Source: Alkalibacillus almallahensis (GTDB lineage: Bacteria > Bacillota > Bacilli > Bacillales > Alkalibacillaceae). From it: a DNA stretch of 64,000 bases. The notes beneath the pieces were generated by a model. The model was not told the origin of the DNA and searched no databases. It worked only from the letters and a program-made list of their open reading frames with translations. Of the stretch, positions 51,654-63,544 are shown in pieces. Each line of letters begins with the position of its first letter. The first letter of the stretch is position 1. The DNA lies in contig NZ_JAASRU010000013.1 in NCBI RefSeq assembly GCF_011761495.1, forward strand, positions 1 to 64,000, read 5' to 3'. The translations under genes were made by a program, and so were the position numbers.

Positions 51654-52952
51654 ATGATCGAACGTTATACACGTGAAGAAATGGGACAAATATGGACAGA
51701 AGAAAATCGGTTTAACGCCTGGTTAGAAGTCGAGGTGTTGGCGAGTGAGGCATGGGCTGCATTAGGTGACATTCCGAATGAAGATGCGAAGAAAATCCGC
51801 GAGAAGGCGTCATTTGATGTTGAGCGGGTCCATGAGATTGAACAGGAGACACGTCATGATGTCGTGGCATTTACCCGAGCTGTGTCTGAGACGCTTGGTG
51901 AAGAGAAAAAGTGGGTCCATTACGGTTTAACGTCTACAGACGTGGTCGACACAGCGCTTTCATACGTGATTAAACAAGCTAACACGATTATTCGAAAAGA
52001 TCTGCATCATTTTTTAGCGGTCTTGAAGCAAAAAGCACAGGATCATAAGTATTCTATTATGATGGGGCGTACGCATGGTGTTCATGCAGAACCAACGACA
52101 TTTGGTCTGAAGTTAGCTTTGTGGTATGAAGAGTTCAAACGCCATATTGAACGATTTGAAGCGGCTGCAGCAGGGATTGAAGTGGGGAAACTATCAGGCG
52201 CTGTCGGGACATATGCGAATATTGATCCGTATGTGGAAGAGTATGTCTGTCAGCAATTAGGGTTAACGCCTTCACCGATTTCGACTCAGACGTTACAACG
52301 CGATCGTCACGCTGATTATATGTCTACCTTAGCGCTAATCGCGACGTCCGTTGAAAAGATGGCGACGGAAATCCGTGGCTTACAAAAGAGTGAGACGCGT
52401 GAGGTGGAAGAATTTTTTGCGAAAGGTCAGAAAGGTTCGTCTGCCATGCCCCATAAGCGGAATCCGATCGGGTCTGAGAATATGTCTGGGATGGCGCGGG
52501 TCATTCGAGGGTATATGATGACGGCTTATGAGAATGTGCCACTTTGGCATGAACGTGACATTTCTCATTCCTCGGCTGAACGTGTGATTTTGCCAGACGC
52601 GACGATTGCGCTCGATTATATGTTAAATCGATTCTCAGGTATTGTAGAGAAGTTAACGGTCTATGAGGATCATATGCGGGCTAATATGGACGCGACATAT
52701 GGCTTGATTTACTCTCAGCGTGTATTACTCACGTTAATCGATCAAGGGTTCTCACGCGAACGTGCGTATGATCTTGTTCAGCCACTAGCGATGCAAGCGT
52801 GGGAAGAAGGCCAGTCGTTTCCTGAATTAATCCGCCAAACAAAAGAAATAACTGATACAGTCGACAGCGAAACGTTAGAAGCATGTTTTGATGCGACTTA
52901 TCATTTAAAAAATGTTGATATGATCTTTGAACGATTAGGATTAGATGATTGA
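51654..52952 (+). CDS. purB: Adenylosuccinate lyase
   Basis: A 432-residue fumarase-superfamily enzyme acting twice in purine synthesis (SAICAR to AICAR, adenylosuccinate to AMP). Visible are [14 protein letters not shown] (catalytic His), the signature loop [18 protein letters not shown] and [26 protein letters not shown] precedes ATG 51654. It overlaps the purH reading frame region closely and is not in a full pur operon here. Confidence 0.96.
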
Positions 52953-52969
52953 GCGAGAGGATGATGGTC

Positions 52970-54499
52970 ATGAAACGGCGCGCTTTAATGAGTGTTTCAG
53001 ATAAAACAGGGATTGTAGATTTTGCGAGTCAGCTCGTTGAAGAGGGTTTCGAGATTATTTCGACAGGTGGAACGAAGCGAGCGCTAGAAGAAGCGGGTTT
53101 ACCCGTTATTAGGATATCAGACGTAACTGAATTTCCAGAGATTCTAGATGGTCGAGTTAAGACGCTTCACCCTCATATTCACGCAGGTTTATTAGCGAAG
53201 CGGGACGATGATCAACACATGGCTACCTTACAAGAGCAGGCGATCCAAACGATTGATCTACTCGTCGTAAATCTTTATCCATTTAAAGAAACGATTTCGA
53301 AACAGGATGTACAACATAATGAAGCGATCGAAAACATCGATATTGGTGGCCCTGCGATGTTGCGGGCTGCGGCTAAAAATTATCAAGACGTTACGGTGGT
53401 TGTGAATCCTAGTGATTATGGGCGGGTGATTGATCATGTGAAGGGTGCTCAAGACAGTTCGCAACTTAATCAAGCTCTAGCAGCAAAAGTGTACCGCCAC
53501 ACAGCACAGTACGATGCGTTTGTAGCAGAATACTTAACAACTGAGGTGGGTGAGGATTTTCCTGAATCGAAGACAATCACTTATGATTTAAAAGAATCAC
53601 TACGCTATGGAGAGAACCCTCATCAGCAAGCAGCTTTTTATGCGAATCCACTTGCTAGCGAGACGTCGCTTGTTCATGCCGAGCAAAGACACGGCAAAGC
53701 CTTATCTTATAATAATATCCAAGATGCGAATGCAGCTTTACAGATTGTTAGAGAGTTTAGCGAACCAGCTGCTGTTGCGGTGAAACATATGAATCCATGT
53801 GGCGTTGGCATTGGCGATCATTTAGATCAAGCATTTACGAGAGCCTATGAAGCAGATCCGATTTCGATCTTCGGTGGCATTGTCGCGGTAAATCGTGAAA
53901 TAGATGAGGTAGTCGCGAATCAATTGAGTCAGATTTTCTTAGAAATTGTGATTGCCCCGCGTTATACAGAGCGAGCTTTTGAGATTTTAGCCCAAAAGAA
54001 AAATATCCGCTTACTCGAGCTACCGATGACAGAGGATGATTCTGAACAAATTTTGCATTCTGTTAAAGGTGGACTGTTGATCCAAGATGAGGATCGTGCG
54101 CCGAAGGAAATGGCTGACTATAGTGTCGCAACAGACCGGGAACCAACTGAAGCAGAATGGAAACAATTGTTATTCAGCTGGGATGTCGTGAAGCATGTGA
54201 AATCCAATGCGATTGTCTTAGCAACGAATCACCAGACAATCGGTATTGGTGCTGGCCAAATGAACCGTGTAGGAGCCGCCAAAATTGCGATTGAACAAGC
54301 GGGTGACCAAGCAAAAGGTGCAGTCATGGCATCAGACGCTTTTTTCCCAATGGATGACACCGTTGAAGCGGCTCACCAAGCAGGTGTGACAGCGATCATT
54401 CAACCAGGCGGATCCAAACGAGATGCTGACTCGATTCAAAAATGTAATGAATACGGAATCGCGATGATATTCACAGGCGTTCGTCACTTTAAACACTAA
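52970..54499 (+). CDS. purH: AICAR transformylase / IMP cyclohydrolase
   Basis: A 509-residue bifunctional enzyme for the last two steps to IMP. The N-terminal cyclohydrolase domain begins MKRRALMSVSDKTGIVDFA with STGGTKRALEEAG; the transformylase domain includes LRYGENPHQQAAFY and VKHMNPCGVG, ending GIAMIFTGVRHFKH. ATG 52970 is preferred because AGAGG (52956-52960) is 9 nt away; earlier in-frame ATG codons at 52961 and 52964 are too close. It follows purB at once; no terminator is obvious before the repeat array. Confidence 0.95.
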   Translation: MKRRALMSVSDKTGIVDFASQLVEEGFEIISTGGTKRALEEAGLPVIRISDVTEFPEILDGRVKTLHPHIHAGLLAKRDDDQHMATLQEQAIQTIDLLVVNLYPFKETISKQDVQHNEAIENIDIGGPAMLRAAAKNYQDVTVVVNPSDYGRVIDHVKGAQDSSQLNQALAAKVYRHTAQYDAFVAEYLTTEVGEDFPESKTITYDLKESLRYGENPHQQAAFYANPLASETSLVHAEQRHGKALSYNNIQDANAALQIVREFSEPAAVAVKHMNPCGVGIGDHLDQAFTRAYEADPISIFGGIVAVNREIDEVVANQLSQIFLEIVIAPRYTERAFEILAQKKNIRLLELPMTEDDSEQILHSVKGGLLIQDEDRAPKEMADYSVATDREPTEAEWKQLLFSWDVVKHVKSNAIVLATNHQTIGIGAGQMNRVGAAKIAIEQAGDQAKGAVMASDAFFPMDDTVEAAHQAGVTAIIQPGGSKRDADSIQKCNEYGIAMIFTGVRHFKH

Positions 54500-54502
54500 G
54501 GT

Positions 54503-54800
54503 CATCGAAATATATCAGCGCTCGCCGATATATATCGGCATTCGTCGATAAACTGTCTATGGCGCCGATATATTGCTGAGGTCGCTGATATAATTCTTGA
54601 GTCGCCGATAAATTGTTCAGCGCGCTGATATACAGTCGGAAACGCAAAATAACGGTCACTCGCTGAAATATATCAGCGCTCGCCGATAAAAATTCAAACT
54701 CGCTGATAAAATATCCAAGACGCCGATATATTATTAAAGTAGCTGATAAAATGCTCAGCGCGCTGATAAATCCGCTAACTCGCCGATATATTGCAATTCA
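54503..54800. repeat. Array of fifteen 20-bp units with CGCYGATAWA core
   Basis: Fifteen consecutive units, each a 10-bp core close to CGCYGATAWA and a 10-bp variable part, begin at 54503, 54523, 54543, 54563, 54583, 54603, 54623, 54643, 54661, 54681, 54701, 54721, 54741, 54761 and 54781. The spacing is exactly 20 bp except one 18-bp unit (54643). Cores mostly alternate CGCC and CGCT. The unit at 54643 and the first unit have degraded cores. A 24-bp stretch at 54507-54530 recurs exactly at 54665-54688. Palindromes lie at 54524-54539 (16 bp), 54617-54628 and 54755-54766. The period is not a multiple of three, so it is not coding. Confidence 0.9.
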
Positions 54801-54868
54801 CAGTCAAAATCTTTTAATGGAATCATTCTAATAACTTCAATAAAAATCGAGAAAAGATGCGATTTATC

Positions 54869-54993
54869 TTGACATTATACCTATAGATATTATAATATAT
54901 TCTATGGCATTTTATCATATCCACGTAATAGCCCCGGAAACTATTCGTGATGAGATAAACGTAATGAAACGGAAATAACAGGAGGGAACCGTC
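54869..54993 (+). ncRNA. Promoter and L13-type leader of rplM-rpsI
   Basis: TTGACA (54869-54874) and TATAAT (54891-54896) are spaced 16 nt. The ~90-nt transcribed leader before rplM lies where L13 leaders are found in Bacilli and ends with AACAGGAGGGA. Assignment to the L13 leader class is by position and general form; the fold was not computed. Confidence 0.65.
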
Positions 54994-55431
54994 ATGCGCC
55001 AAACATTTATGGCAAACGAACAAAACGTTGAGCGTAAATGGTACGTAGTTGACGCAGAAGGCCAAACTTTAGGTCGTCTATCGACAGAAGTTGCAGCACT
55101 TCTACGTGGCAAGCATAAGCCAAGCTACACACCACACGTTGATACAGGTGACAATGTCATCGTAATTAATGCAGACAAAATTCAGTTAACAGGTAAGAAA
55201 TTAACTGATAAGAAATATTACCGTCATTCAAACTACCCAGGTGGTTTGAAAGAGCGTAGCGCAGAAGAAATGCGTAATAATTATCCAGAACAAATGCTTG
55301 AACAAGCAATCAAAGGCATGCTACCTAAGAACAAATTAGGTCGTAAAATGGGCAAAAAGCTACACGTCTATCGTGACGCTAACCATAGACATCATGCACA
55401 AAAACCAGAAGTTTACGAGCTTCGTGGATAA
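54994..55431 (+). CDS. rplM: 50S ribosomal protein L13
   Basis: A 145-residue early-assembly protein. It begins [43 protein letters not shown] and ends YELRG as in B. subtilis (145 residues). AGGAGGGA precedes ATG 54994. Pairs with rpsI. Confidence 0.97.
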
Positions 55432-55449
55432 TTAAGGAGGGTAATTGAA

Positions 55450-55842
55450 TTGGCACAAGTACAATATAACGGCACTGGCCGTCGTAAAAGCTCAGTAGCA
55501 CGTGTACGACTAGTACCAGGTAATGGTAAAGTCGTTGTGAATAAAATCGATGCAGAACAATACTTCCCACACGAAACTCTACGTCGTGTGATTAACCAAC
55601 CATTAGACGTTACAGAAAACACAGGTAACTATGACATTTATGTCAACGTTGATGGTGGTGGATTCTCAGGTCAAGCTGGTGCGATCCGCTTAGGCGTTGC
55701 TCGCGCTCTATTAGAAGCTGACCCTGAATACCGCCCATCGCTAAAACGCGCTGGACTTCTAACGCGTGACGCACGTGAGAAAGAACGTAAAAAATACGGT
55801 CTTCGTGGCGCTCGTCGTTCACCACAGTTCTCAAAACGTTAA
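55450..55842 (+). CDS. rpsI: 30S ribosomal protein S9
   Basis: A 130-residue head protein whose C-terminal tail SPQFSKR reaches P-site tRNA. It begins [34 protein letters not shown] 55450 follows AAGGAGGG. It ends the conserved core; accessory sequence follows. Confidence 0.97.
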
Positions 55843-55860
55843 AAACCCTGTTATATCAAG

Positions 55861-55903
55861 GTTTCAAACACCCATTCGTTATCAGACGGATGGGTGTTTT
55901 TTT
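55861..55903 (+). terminator. Terminator after rpsI, copy 1 of a repeated hairpin
   Basis: AAACACCCATTCGT (55866-55879) pairs with ACGGATGGGTGTTT (55886-55899, one G-U) and leads into T residues. The flanking GTTTC before the stem is also present in the copies at 56729-56771 and 60670-60712. Confidence 0.9.
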
Positions 55904-56199
55904 ATACATGGTAATTTAAATTCAACTTACTTATACGCTAGTCTGATCCTTGTGAAAAACCACAATTAATAGTAAAGAGCCAGTGATGAACGACAATATA
56001 CAAAAATGTAAATAATTAGGTATAATTTTATTATTGTTTAATATAAGGTGTTTATCTATAATGAAGAAAAAGTACATATCCATTAAAGTTTGAAATTTTA
56101 TTAAAGAGGTTTTTTAATTTTTGACATGAGGTTTATTAATCCGTTGTAGATACAATTTTAATTTAATGATTCTAAATGAAAAGTGGAGGGGAATAATTC
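55904..56199. other. Intergenic region without a recognisable gene
   Basis: AT-rich sequence after rpsI. It contains a 26-nt segment (55954-55979) nearly repeated at 56965-56991 and a TTGACA at 56121-56126 without a well-spaced -10 box. Nothing else was recognised. Confidence 0.6.
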
Positions 56200-56583
56200 T
56201 TGAAAAAAAGGTATGTAGTTTATGTAGTTATAACCATAATTTTAATGGCAAGTATTTATTTCTTAGTAGTATCCAACATTAATAATGATGAAACAATCTA
56301 TATTAACATGCATGATGATGTTGAGAGTGTTACGAATGAGGAGAATAATTTCAAAGGAAATGTGACTGAAGAGTTGGCTGTAGAAAATTTGATTAGCTAT
56401 TTGTATGAACAAAATCAAACATCTAAAGGTTTTGAGGTTCACTTAGAAGACAAGGAACAAGAAGAGGATAAACATATTATGCAAGTATTTAGCGTAGTTG
56501 GAGAAGATGAATCCCAAAGCAAAGAAAATCTAGGGTTGTATTCTGTTAGTAAAAGTACTGGTAAAATATCAGAACTTAATTAA
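56200..56583 (+). CDS. Small membrane-anchored protein of unknown function
   Basis: A 127-residue frame starting with TTG 56200, 8 nt after TGGAGGGG. Residues 4-26 are one hydrophobic helix after a Lys/Arg start, with no lipobox Cys; the rest is hydrophilic and strongly acidic, so an extracellular domain is likely. The C-terminus LGLYSVSKSTGKISELN resembles short beta-hairpins of PepSY-like proteins, but this is too weak to assign a family. It lies between two copies of a repeated hairpin and is flanked by non-coding DNA. Confidence 0.65.
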   Translation: MKKRYVVYVVITIILMASIYFLVVSNINNDETIYINMHDDVESVTNEENNFKGNVTEELAVENLISYLYEQNQTSKGFEVHLEDKEQEEDKHIMQVFSVVGEDESQSKENLGLYSVSKSTGKISELN

Positions 56584-56603
56584 AGAAATTGCTTTTAGGA
56601 AAA

Positions 56604-56701
56604 ACTCTCACTTAGTTTATATGAACTATACCCCAGTTAGTGACTAATTAAAAATGTCTTTAACTGGGGTTTTGTATTAATTAGCCGGAATGAGTGAGAG
56701 T
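56604..56701 (+). terminator. Nested hairpins after the 127-residue gene
   Basis: An outer 9-bp repeat ACTCTCACT (56604-56612) with AGTGAGAGT (56693-56701) followed by GGTTTTTA encloses an inner terminator ACCCCAGTTA (56630-56639) with TAACTGGGGT (56661-56670) and TTT. The inner element recurs after the arylsulfotransferase-like gene at 59045-59090. Confidence 0.75.
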
Positions 56702-56728
56702 GGTTTTTATAATTGGCTCAGTAATAAT

Positions 56729-56771
56729 GTTTCAAACACCCATTCGTTATTAAACGAATGGGTGTTTTTTT
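56729..56771 (+). repeat. Repeated terminator-like hairpin, copy 2
   Basis: The same element as at 55861-55903: GTTTC, then AAACACCCATTCGT pairing with ACGAATGGGTGTTT and a T tract. It follows another terminator and no gene lies between, so it is not needed to end a transcript. Confidence 0.85.
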
Positions 56772-57383
56772 ATGACATCCATTAACTGAACATCAGATAG
56801 TTTTTGTCTCTGTCGTGCAAAGTCATGTCCAATCGTTTTGGAGATTAAAGTTGTTTGTAAAATATAAGCTAATAGTGATCAAAGCAAAATCACTGTTTAA
56901 TGGATTAAATTGCAGTTTAAGCAGGATGTACAAAATTATGTTTAATAGCAATTTGCTAATAGAGGAAAAACCCACAATTTATAGTAAAGAGTTAAGTCAT
57001 ATATAAATCGTCATCTTTTGACATAATAATGCACTTTTGTTGTAATATTGACAAAATGATCAAGAAGAGTGCTGACAGGCTTTGTTATTTCTCGTGTTAA
57101 TACCAATTATTTTTTCAATAGTGCAGAATTTAAACTTTTATAGAAAAGTGATCATCAAAGTCTAGGTGGGATGCCATCAAGGCAATCTTCTTTTGAAAGA
57201 TTCATAGTCGTTCTCTTGATTTTAATCGTAATCGTTTCACCGCTTGCTAATAAACATGCTGAGAGTAAACGGTTTAATCCTTAATTCAAAGAAAGCTAAA
57301 TGATCATTTTAACTGTTTCCGCAATATGTAGAATCTTAATACCTTTACATATATCGTACATAAAAAGGGAGAGGGGACTAATC
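56772..57383. other. Intergenic region without a convincing gene
   Basis: About 610 nt. A 63-codon frame at 56815-57006 lacks a ribosome site and recognisable sequence. The second copy of the short repeat is at 56965-56991. A purine-rich stretch before 57384 is the ribosome site of the next gene. No promoter was identified with confidence. Confidence 0.6.
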
Positions 57384-59033
57384 GTGCGTCGAGTGTATGT
57401 CATTATTGTGTCGTTAAGTATAGTCGTGCTTGCTGGAGTCCTTTGGTTTGTATTATCCGAGGAGATGAAAAAGGAACAAATGGTAAATGAAGCGGAAGAA
57501 GCGGAAAGTGATCCTTCCTCTTCAAAACGTAGTGAAGAGATAGATGAGCAACAACAGCTCAAAGAAGATTTAAAAACCACATATGAAGACGGAGACTATT
57601 CTTTCACTAATCCAATGATTGAAAAGGATCCTTACAATTTTTCTCCTTTATCCGCGCTTGCTTTATTTCAGACAGATGAAGCAGCAGAAGTCACTGTTAT
57701 TGTGGAAGGAAAAGATGGTGCAAAGGATATTGAGAAAACCATTTCGGGCTCTCGAACTGAACACGAAATACCCATTCTTGGACTTTATCCAGATGCAACC
57801 AATCAAGTGATTCTGCAAGCTGAAACAGAATCGGGTGAAACGATGAAACATGAGTTTGAAGTCGAAACTAGCTCGTTACCTGATGACTTAATTCAACCGA
57901 CAATAGAAGAAAGCCATCCAGAAAACATGCAAGATGGATTGACGTTTGTCGTTCCAAGCAAAAAGTATCCATATGCTGTTGATGAAAATGCTCAAGTCCG
58001 CTGGTATTCTAGTATGCAAAGCCAGCATTTGTTTAAACGTTTGGAAAATGGTCATATATTGCTAGCACCTAAGAATAAAGAAGAAAACGGTGAACTTGTA
58101 GTAATGGATATGCTCGGTGATATTCAAGATAGTTATAACGTCGAAGTTGAAAATTACGAAAATAACGATATCATTCACCATGATACGATCGAACTTCCAA
58201 ATGGAAACTTACTTGCTACTGTTCATGATGGCGCGGAATATATTGAAGATGAAATGATTGAAATAGATAGAGAGACTGGTGAAACGGTAAACGTTGTTGA
58301 TATGAAAGAGGTCATGCCTTCTTCCTTTTACGAGGACTACAGCGGCCCAGGAATTGAAAATGGTGAGGTGGACTGGTTCCATCAAAATGCTGTTTCCTAC
58401 GATGAGAAGGACGATGCCATTTTAGTATCTAGCCGAAGTCAGGATATTGTGGTGAAAATGGATTATCCTGATGGTGACATTAAGTGGATTTTAGGATCTC
58501 ATGAAAATTGGCCATCCTCATATGAACAGTATTTGCTTGAGCCTGAATCTGAGGATATGAAGTTTCCAGGTGCCCAGCACGCTATGACTACATTGCCTGA
58601 TCAAGATCAAAATGACGCGACGAGTGATGTGCTTCTTTTTGATAATAATAAAGTGATTACCCGCGGAGACGAAGGAAAAAGTGAAGAATTCAGTCAAGCG
58701 GTTCAATACCGAATTAATGAAGAAGACCATACCGTCGAACAGGTTTGGTCTTACGGAAAAGAACGGGGAGAAGAGTTTTTCTCCTTTATCATCGGTGATG
58801 CTGATCATCTGCCAGACGATGGGAATAGACTGATCACTTCAGGTTACATGCTGAATTCCGAAGACGAAAGAGAAAGTCGGATCGTTGAAGTGACCGGTTC
58901 TAATGATCCTGAAGTCGTTTTTGAAATCTTATTAACTGGCTTCACTGAAGATGCTAATAACAAAGCTTACCGAGCAGAACGAATGCCTTTATATCCTCAG
59001 AACCAAGCTAACCCGTCGATTTTTCAGAGATAA
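57384..59033 (+). CDS. Membrane-anchored arylsulfotransferase (ASST)-like protein
   Basis: A 549-residue protein. A basic start and one hydrophobic helix (about residues 4-24) anchor it, followed by an acidic linker to about residue 90. An N-terminal beta-sandwich-like region and then beta-propeller blades follow, with ASST-type segments FHQNAVSYDEKDDAILVSSR, IKWILGSHENW and PGAQHAMTTL (His candidates). ASST enzymes move sulfate between phenols by a His intermediate. The substrate is not evident. GTG 57384 follows GGGAGAGGGG; an upstream in-frame extension to 57300 lacks a ribosome site. Confidence 0.78.
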   Translation: MRRVYVIIVSLSIVVLAGVLWFVLSEEMKKEQMVNEAEEAESDPSSSKRSEEIDEQQQLKEDLKTTYEDGDYSFTNPMIEKDPYNFSPLSALALFQTDEAAEVTVIVEGKDGAKDIEKTISGSRTEHEIPILGLYPDATNQVILQAETESGETMKHEFEVETSSLPDDLIQPTIEESHPENMQDGLTFVVPSKKYPYAVDENAQVRWYSSMQSQHLFKRLENGHILLAPKNKEENGELVVMDMLGDIQDSYNVEVENYENNDIIHHDTIELPNGNLLATVHDGAEYIEDEMIEIDRETGETVNVVDMKEVMPSSFYEDYSGPGIENGEVDWFHQNAVSYDEKDDAILVSSRSQDIVVKMDYPDGDIKWILGSHENWPSSYEQYLLEPESEDMKFPGAQHAMTTLPDQDQNDATSDVLLFDNNKVITRGDEGKSEEFSQAVQYRINEEDHTVEQVWSYGKERGEEFFSFIIGDADHLPDDGNRLITSGYMLNSEDERESRIVEVTGSNDPEVVFEILLTGFTEDANNKAYRAERMPLYPQNQANPSIFQR

Positions 59034-63491: not shown

Positions 63492-63544
63492 TTGTAAAAC
63501 GCATCTATTTAGATTATTATCTAATTAGATAATAATCTAAATAG
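63492..63544 (+). promoter_or_regulatory. Promoter inside a 40-bp perfect palindrome (ArsR operator)
   Basis: The left arm CTATTTAGATTATTATCTAA (63505-63524) is exactly repeated in inverse at 63525-63544 with no loop. TTGTAA (63492-63497) and TATTAT (63515-63520) form a 17-nt spaced promoter whose -10 is within the palindrome. The palindrome ends at the Shine-Dalgarno of the ArsR-type gene, so self-repression is expected. Confidence 0.75.

Follow-up and report, generated by a model that had tools for sequence, protein, structure and literature searches.

The intergenic region between purH and rplM of Alkalibacillus almallahensis raises the question of what an extended run of short direct repeats, phased at almost exactly 20 bp, does at this position. 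We analysed it in a window of 64,000 nt (positions 1 to 64,000 of contig NZ_JAASRU010000013.1 in assembly GCF_011761495.1, here genome G000), followed the repeat into related genomes and looked for a protein that accompanies it.

The array between purH and rplM

The array (54503-54790, + strand) begins right after the stop codon of purH (52949-54499, + strand) and is followed by rplM (54994-55431, + strand), the gene names being taken from a preliminary description of this DNA and assigned by eye. Scored against CGCYGATAWA, it contains 13 cores with at most one mismatch between 54523 and 54790: ten are exact (starting at 54523, 54563, 54583, 54603, 54623, 54681, 54701, 54721, 54761 and 54781) and three carry one mismatch (54543, 54661 and 54741). 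The preliminary description had counted fifteen units; the other two positions keep to the array but are degenerate, with three mismatches to the core at 54503 and, by eye, four at 54643 (CGCAAAATAA). Neighbouring cores are 20 bp apart except for 38 bp spanning 54643, which is the sole irregularity in the exact period reported for this array. The 24-bp block at 54507-54530 (+ strand) recurs exactly at 54665-54688 (+ strand), and the three palindromes pointed out earlier (54524-54539, 54617-54628 and 54755-54766) are all exact. Two exact cores in inverted orientation (CGCTGATATA) lie inside the array as well, at 54511-54520 and 54669-54678 on the - strand. The alternation of C and T at the fourth core base holds approximately in the window array but, by eye, is not general in other species; doublets of 40-42 bp are plain in some Lysinibacillus arrays.

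All 12 exact matches to CGCYGATAWA in the window (10 on the + strand and the 2 inverted) fall within the array, while shuffled windows contained 0.52 on average and 3 at most. The longest chain of cores (at most two mismatches, 18-22 bp apart) has 7 members in the array and 2 in the remaining window. No open reading frame of at least 80 aa spans the array and its 20-bp period is not divisible by three, indicating, as previously proposed, that it is non-coding. At the RNA level, the array folds better than its shuffles (z -3.5), for which the inverted cores may be responsible. A crude terminator finder detected no terminator between purH and the array, and an Rfam scan of 52000-57500 gave zero matches at the gathering score. 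A probable L13 ribosomal leader candidate lies upstream of rplM at 54906-54963, with 33.8 bits against a gathering score of 44, and by eye is kept in G005 and G008. A 16-bp tandem repeat of 2.6 copies at 63503-63544 of the window is apparently unrelated to the array.

Recurrence of the arrays and their partner gene

In both its own genome and other Bacillaceae, the spaced core searched for at the suggestion of the preliminary description recurs as arrays at 20/21-bp spacing. The 36 contigs of G000 contain 38 occurrences of a two-core pattern (cores separated by 8-12 bp, with A or C as the third base), spread over 15 places; two CGCYGATAWA cores are present at 12 of these. The reversed pattern has zero occurrences in this genome. 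The two-core pattern was present in 10 of 60 genomes (own and relatives); within the genus we counted 115 pairs in G002, 126 in G003, 101 in G004, 38 in G005 and none in G001. Pairs of a stricter core were found in 26 of the 397 genomes of the order (own included) and in 17 of 136 genera, and the reversed-pattern control over the 397 genomes gave 0 in every row. Among the matches listed, arrays occur in Oceanobacillus, Alkalibacillus, Neobacillus, Lysinibacillus, Rossellomorea, Metabacillus and others, and the single pairs from distant phyla resemble chance hits. A Cryptobacteroides MAG (L136:1081-1174) contains five CGCCGATAAA cores spaced 21 bp apart, their linkers nearly identical, which may reflect contamination, transfer or chance. 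The arrays of Oceanobacillus senegalensis (L080, L087) run into N stretches of 1.5-3 kb.

The anatomy of the arrays is strict. Of 617 neighbouring cores no more than 22 bp apart, 580 are spaced by 20 or 21 bp, and wider gaps tend to be multiples of 20/21 bp. Column information ranges from 1.06 to 2.0 bits in the cores, which were selected by pattern, and from 0.03 to 0.6 bits in the linker. Among the 116 arrays at named loci, 47 have five units and 82 have four to six. The strict spacing, conserved core and variable linker support the earlier proposal of a sequence-specific protein array on one helix face.

When the ORFs beside arrays were clustered, one unusual family stood out, a NERD-domain protein located 0-66 bp from arrays at five loci, two of them with partial genes. 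The remaining families that recur beside arrays, by eye ABC ATPases, GntR-type regulators and sensor kinases, seemed to be generally common ones and were set aside. A search profile (A1) built from three full-length members of the NERD family matches 311 of the 397 genomes of the order, including all 26 that bear arrays and 285 of the 371 others; since a match at 1e-10 may span the NERD part only and the family is common, this co-occurrence is weak. The unexpected finding lay in the flanks of the genes. Repeat finding at the 30 best protein loci revealed 20/21-bp arrays beside most genes, with cores differing from locus to locus, and the picture was the same at 30 of the 42 family matches in ten chosen genomes. 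Under a fixed rule (best 6-mer chain at exactly 20/21 spacing, no more than 450 bp from the gene, score of at least 3), an array lies beside 26 of the 29 best-scoring protein loci, or 26 of 30 if L261, left unscored because no reading frame met the gene rule, is taken as a miss. The same holds for 30/30 loci of the ten genomes, which were chosen partly for having arrays and in which those 30 of 42 matches were covered; this count includes L298, which has an array although it is cut short ahead of the winged helix. At L292 the gene rule took a neighbouring ORF, and the array adjoins the actual NERD gene.

The controls were empty. Among NERD genes from other Firmicutes with a match that stops before the winged helix, 0 of 24 have an array (21 of the profile matches end by position 231 and 3 reach 247-256); as these genes are also taxonomically distant, this control does not isolate the domain. 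Under the same scoring rule, 0 of 30 dnaA loci from the genomes of the best-locus set have an array, and spacings of 15/16, 17/18, 23/24, 25/26 and 30/31 bp gave 0 in all groups. With a slightly looser rule, an array adjoins 59 of 62 genes (18 on both sides, 23 only 5' and 18 only 3'), the exceptions being L249, L254 and L267. L389 (G571), a full-length relative from another order, had no detectable array, with a best chain of 2.5. Three loci found through their arrays (L191, L094 and L083) are part of the looser-rule, residue and covariation sets and are not in the scored-flank counts; at L083:966-2361, in Lysinibacillus sp. BPa_S21, an array of 66 cores adjoins the NERD gene. The pairing of gene and array is almost certainly real, and that the arrays and these proteins belong together is strongly supported. 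A neutral minisatellite expanding by slippage would account for the 66 units of the Lysinibacillus array and for the whole-unit gains and losses seen between G000 and G005, but it is scarcely credible in view of the strict 20/21 spacing with free linkers and the specific pairing with one protein family.

NERD (PF08378) is above the Pfam cut-off in 6/6 proteins scanned, with no other family above cut-off, and the own-genome protein scores 60.1 bits against a gathering cut-off of 22.1. In the partner protein, this domain is accompanied by a CxxC-CxxC zinc ribbon and by a winged helix, the latter predicted. In the numbering of the own-genome protein, E46, D79, K94 and Q125 are present in 59/59 sequences and E92 in 57/59, while the zinc-ribbon cysteines are kept in 57-59 of 59. 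We take the E46/D79/E92/K94/Q125 pattern to be that expected of a PD-(D/E)XK nuclease. The full-length structure model is poor (pLDDT 46). The model of the C-terminal part (mean pLDDT 70) comprises a beta hairpin, three helices and a short strand; its winged-helix matches reach Z 6.0, with Foldseek E no better than 0.018, lending loose support to a winged helix in this part. A sequence search for a solved NERD relative returned none; its hits were limited to zinc ribbons and to unrelated chains, with E values of 0.1 or worse. In PHROGs, one family without an assigned function matches weakly in 3 of 5 proteins.

The defence models of PADLOC and NCBIfam gave only weak matches of the NERD part to PglW, MADS6 and MkoA, in NCBIfam far below the cut-off. 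Those to the PglW and MADS6 models raise a conflict or defence role, in which the nuclease would be held at self arrays, or the arrays would mark self against foreign DNA, with arms-race switches of specificity. The C-terminal part indeed changes fast, and passages of one study place NERD among the restriction-type nucleases near Dnd systems (PMC10853773). However, the model matches fall far below curated cut-offs and the solo arrays far from any partner would be left unexplained, making this role distinctly unlikely.

The C-terminal part and the core

The core differs between paralogs, while the two arrays of one gene share their core in 18/18 genes (similarity 0.91-1.00, against a between-gene mean of 0.66). 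By eye, 15 of these 18 array pairs have the same orientation, that of L271 is inverted and two have near-palindromic cores. Read in gene sense, many cores appear by eye to consist of a CG-rich half followed by an AT-rich half, such as TCGCTGATAAA, TTCGCCGGAWTA, CTCGATGATAA and CGCTTAAAT, and GGCTCATAAA, TGTCCGATA and TCGCGGATATAA are of the same build. Among 56 genes, whose pairs include close orthologs, core similarity tracks C-terminal identity at constant NERD identity (partial correlation 0.20, reached by 0/500 permutations). NERD identity at constant C-terminal identity shows no such relation (-0.08, 465/500 permutations).

Individual loci show the same association. L299 and L300 are one locus in two species, where the NERD part is 94% and the C-terminal part 47% alike; the DNA is 92.5% identical through the gene, this identity stops at the start of the zinc ribbon, and the cores of the 3' arrays differ. 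L281 (G005) and L288 (G000) also occupy one locus, judged by one flank at 90.8% identity, the other side being a contig end in G000; their NERD parts are 69% and their C-terminal parts 44% alike, and the cores are different. Likewise, L276 and L277 differ in core from L279, with a NERD part 93% and a C-terminal part 64-70% alike.

We also asked where each core forms arrays, within the 0.13-0.43 Mb examined per genome, which partly includes the arrays adjoining the genes themselves. Cores of the G002 and G003 paralogs pair only in those two species, with 0 in G000 and G005, and seven foreign cores gave 0 arrays in G000, G002, G003 and G005. For two cores, CCGAATAG and TGTCGGAC, arrays occur also or only in the species whose gene at that locus has the other core, as if a switch had taken place at the locus.

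Judged from the covariation and the exchanges, the C-terminal part very probably reads the core. The zinc ribbon and winged helix would then recognise the 10-bp core, the spacing of two helical turns (20/21 bp) would align some five proteins along the same side of the double helix, and the NERD domain, with its conserved PD-(D/E)XK nuclease residues, would probably cut or nick DNA at the arrays. The binding protein postulated in the preliminary description would thus acquire a name, the NERD-zinc ribbon-winged helix family. The NERD domain in turn gains a DNA target, and the paralogs, each with its own array, constitute a natural code table of reading specificity.

Occupied and solo sites, and likeness to known systems

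G000 has three matches to the family. The partner gene for the window core lies outside the window, at G000:C19:15753-16697, with CGCYGATAWA-type arrays on both sides; the chains there are weak (3.0 and 3.5), a consequence of the large number of degenerate or inverted units. NERD genes adjoin the same core also in G003, G004, G040, G170, G288 and G384. G001, which lacks such arrays, has eight family matches, and the four loci examined have other cores. In G002, G003 and G004, arrays with a TCGCCGGAWTA core adjoin a NERD gene, and by eye the array after purH has this same core in all three.

At the C19 site, the sister species G005 has the same flanking genes and a single solo array, to which both G000 arrays align in blocks of 84% and 89% identity. 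Either a deletion between the arrays or an insertion of gene and array would give this difference, a comparison of one locus whose direction is not polarised. G005 has CGCYGATAWA arrays at 11 places in the sequence examined and no partner gene for them was found among the 2 family matches of its 96% complete assembly; gene loss is therefore the simpler reading. Boundaries of solo arrays and target duplications were not found.

The arrays themselves also change. Between G000 and G005 we observed whole-unit gains and losses, and positions differ at 27/369 in the core, 148/736 in the linker and 454/4975 in the flank, a comparison that we do not rely on since the cores were picked by their match in G000 and unit turnover inflates the linker value. 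In G002 and G003, the array is at the same place in 4/4 fully aligned loci (86-90% identical), and at some shared loci GATAAA-core units of G003 align to CCAAAT-core units of G002. Three composite arrays of G003 (L352, L353 and L359) have GATAAA-core units running in register into CCAAAT-core units, with the boundary at a different point in G002. On contig C17 of G002 (L380:7055-12487), five arrays with the same core and orientation alternate with four different genes in a cassette-like string. These genes are a NERD gene and, by eye, a second NERD-like gene, one resembling an antiporter and one resembling pRiA4b. An 8-kb segment present in G005 and absent from G000 has one breakpoint at an array edge (L414:5735-5838, L219:3636-3731). 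In Neobacillus mesonae, two distant arrays (L099 and L157) share, by eye, their linkers in order as well as outside sequence, ~30 bp before and ~90 bp after, which would suit the copying of a whole unit about 200 bp long.

As to the gene and strand preferences raised in the preliminary description, arrays favour gene 3' ends and the sense orientation. Among the 96 arrays with an ORF on both sides (13 others were left out of this count), 46 lie in sense and 15 in antisense between co-directional genes, 29 lie in convergent and 6 in divergent gaps; the 525 background gaps comprise 315 co-directional, 87 convergent and 123 divergent ones. The crude finder recognised a terminator ahead of the array, after the stop codon, in 31 of 75 cases, and one at or beyond the start of the array in 3 of 75. 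These counts bear on an RNA element acting after transcription, as a 3' region, a sponge or a small RNA. The sense bias between co-directional genes, the better-than-shuffle fold of the window array and the small RNAs proposed for such repeats in passages of PMC8161180 would all suit it. Against it, the arrays mostly follow recognised terminators instead of preceding them, they lie on either side of NERD genes and their core tracks a DNA-binding-type domain, so that an RNA role is very unlikely and the repeated RNA structure first suggested is not borne out.

With respect to the origin of replication, by eye no consistent leading-strand bias was apparent for the arrays of three large assemblies with a located dnaA. 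Measured along the contigs, array places cluster: in G377:C1 (contig of 3.83 Mb, dnaA at 101 kb) all 10 lie at 270-1837 kb and nine of them within ~820 kb of dnaA, and a lean towards dnaA is also seen in G402:C1 (3 places) and G403:C1 (10 places).

The enrichment of convergent gaps (29/96 vs 87/525), the depletion of divergent ones (6/96 vs 123/525) and the conserved places in G002 and G003 are what a host chromosome-structuring role might leave behind. NERD proteins would coat the dispersed arrays and organise or insulate the nucleoid, and the gene-flanking arrays would be ordinary or autoregulatory; the idea is already in print for the repeats, in passages of PMC8161180. We consider it unlikely, in that the arrays are patchy within the genus (none in G001), a single genome carries multiple paralogs whose cores are unrelated, the reading part is exchanged along with its array and nuclease-type residues are conserved.

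From the gene-array pairing, the core common to both sides of a gene, the one occupied/solo pair and the exchange of reading part and array, we infer binding, cutting and spread. It is rather likely that the array in the window consists of solo cognate sites of a protein from the NERD-zinc ribbon-winged helix family, whose array-gene-array units probably spread selfishly. Such units would correspond to a complete element and the solo arrays to its solo ends: recombination between flanking arrays would delete the gene and leave a solo array, and nuclease-stimulated recombination would probably seed or convert arrays elsewhere, mostly at gene 3' ends. As reading part and array may be exchanged together, a genome would collect several orthogonal nuclease-array pairs and solo footprints. 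Whether the array-gene-array unit propagates itself is evenly balanced in our judgement, and the chances are about equal for and against a new class of self-propagating chromosomal element of Bacillales, composed of a nuclease whose reading part is exchangeable and whose gene lies between arrays that repeat its own code word. If the units move, they are a new kind of mobile element; if not, they are a new array-binding system of the bacterial chromosome. Limited searches for an extrachromosomal source led us to reject it: the window array had only 3 weak, chance-like plasmid matches (E 0.9 or worse), the 66-core Lysinibacillus array had no match in plasmids or phages, and viral contigs yielded 11 stretches, each holding a single pair, but did not contain any relative of the NERD protein.

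The preliminary description knew of no named system for the array, but tandem repeats of 20-21 nt have been described in Bacillus as a class without known function (PMC8161180, in the passages available). In the parts of their papers available, Subirana and Messeguer describe them as non-coding repeats that share a short conserved signal and fall into several families in each genome, specific to the species (PMC6749651, PMC8161180), and propose protein polymerisation on DNA or small RNAs as roles (PMC8161180). B. subtilis 168 is listed there as having none of these repeats. The present arrays resemble these repeats in their constant size (580/617 spacings of 20 or 21 bp), their short conserved signal with a variable rest and their non-coding nature. 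The signal of B. weihaiensis, printed in one passage as TCGCGG (PMC8161180), is contained in the core beside the NERD gene L270, possibly by chance. Unlike their description, ours adds the NERD partner, the solo/occupied site and the exchanges; the words 'NERD' and 'nuclease' are absent from the main text of PMC8161180 and PMC6749651, and a full-text search, with most subscription papers and separate bioRxiv preprints outside its scope, found no paper pairing the NERD domain with tandem repeats and three that mention it along with direct repeats; no earlier report linking NERD proteins to such arrays came to light. A repeat class that its describers called enigmatic thus gains a partner protein. 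For the NERD domain, the relevant passage of a 2022 paper on one morphology protein states that, to its authors' knowledge, the role in bacteria had been unstudied before (PMC9040797). Among NERD proteins (PF08378), the partner protein is set apart by the zinc ribbon and predicted winged helix.

Other known systems share individual features with the arrays. A CRISPR array has repeats of ~23 nt or more and unique spacers of similar length, whereas the core here is 10 bp and the linker 10-11 bp, in agreement with the preliminary description, which had judged the array not CRISPR-like. Iterons of plasmids and partition sites also consist of a few direct repeats ~20 bp apart read by a winged helix-type protein; unlike them, the arrays are chromosomal and present in many copies, their core differs between paralogs and no replication or partition gene was noticed beside them. 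REP/BIME sequences with RAYT are likewise repeats scattered through intergenic regions, and they too flank a protein gene. RAYT is a Y1 HUH transposase and REPs are palindromes, while the protein linked to the arrays is NERD by Pfam and the cores are direct and phased at 20/21 bp. Homing endonuclease genes, and LTRs with their solo LTRs, offer a likeness in occupied and solo sites and in flanking repeats. In contrast to a homing endonuclease element, the flanking arrays of G000 duplicate the single array of G005, at the one locus compared, and do not correspond to its halves.
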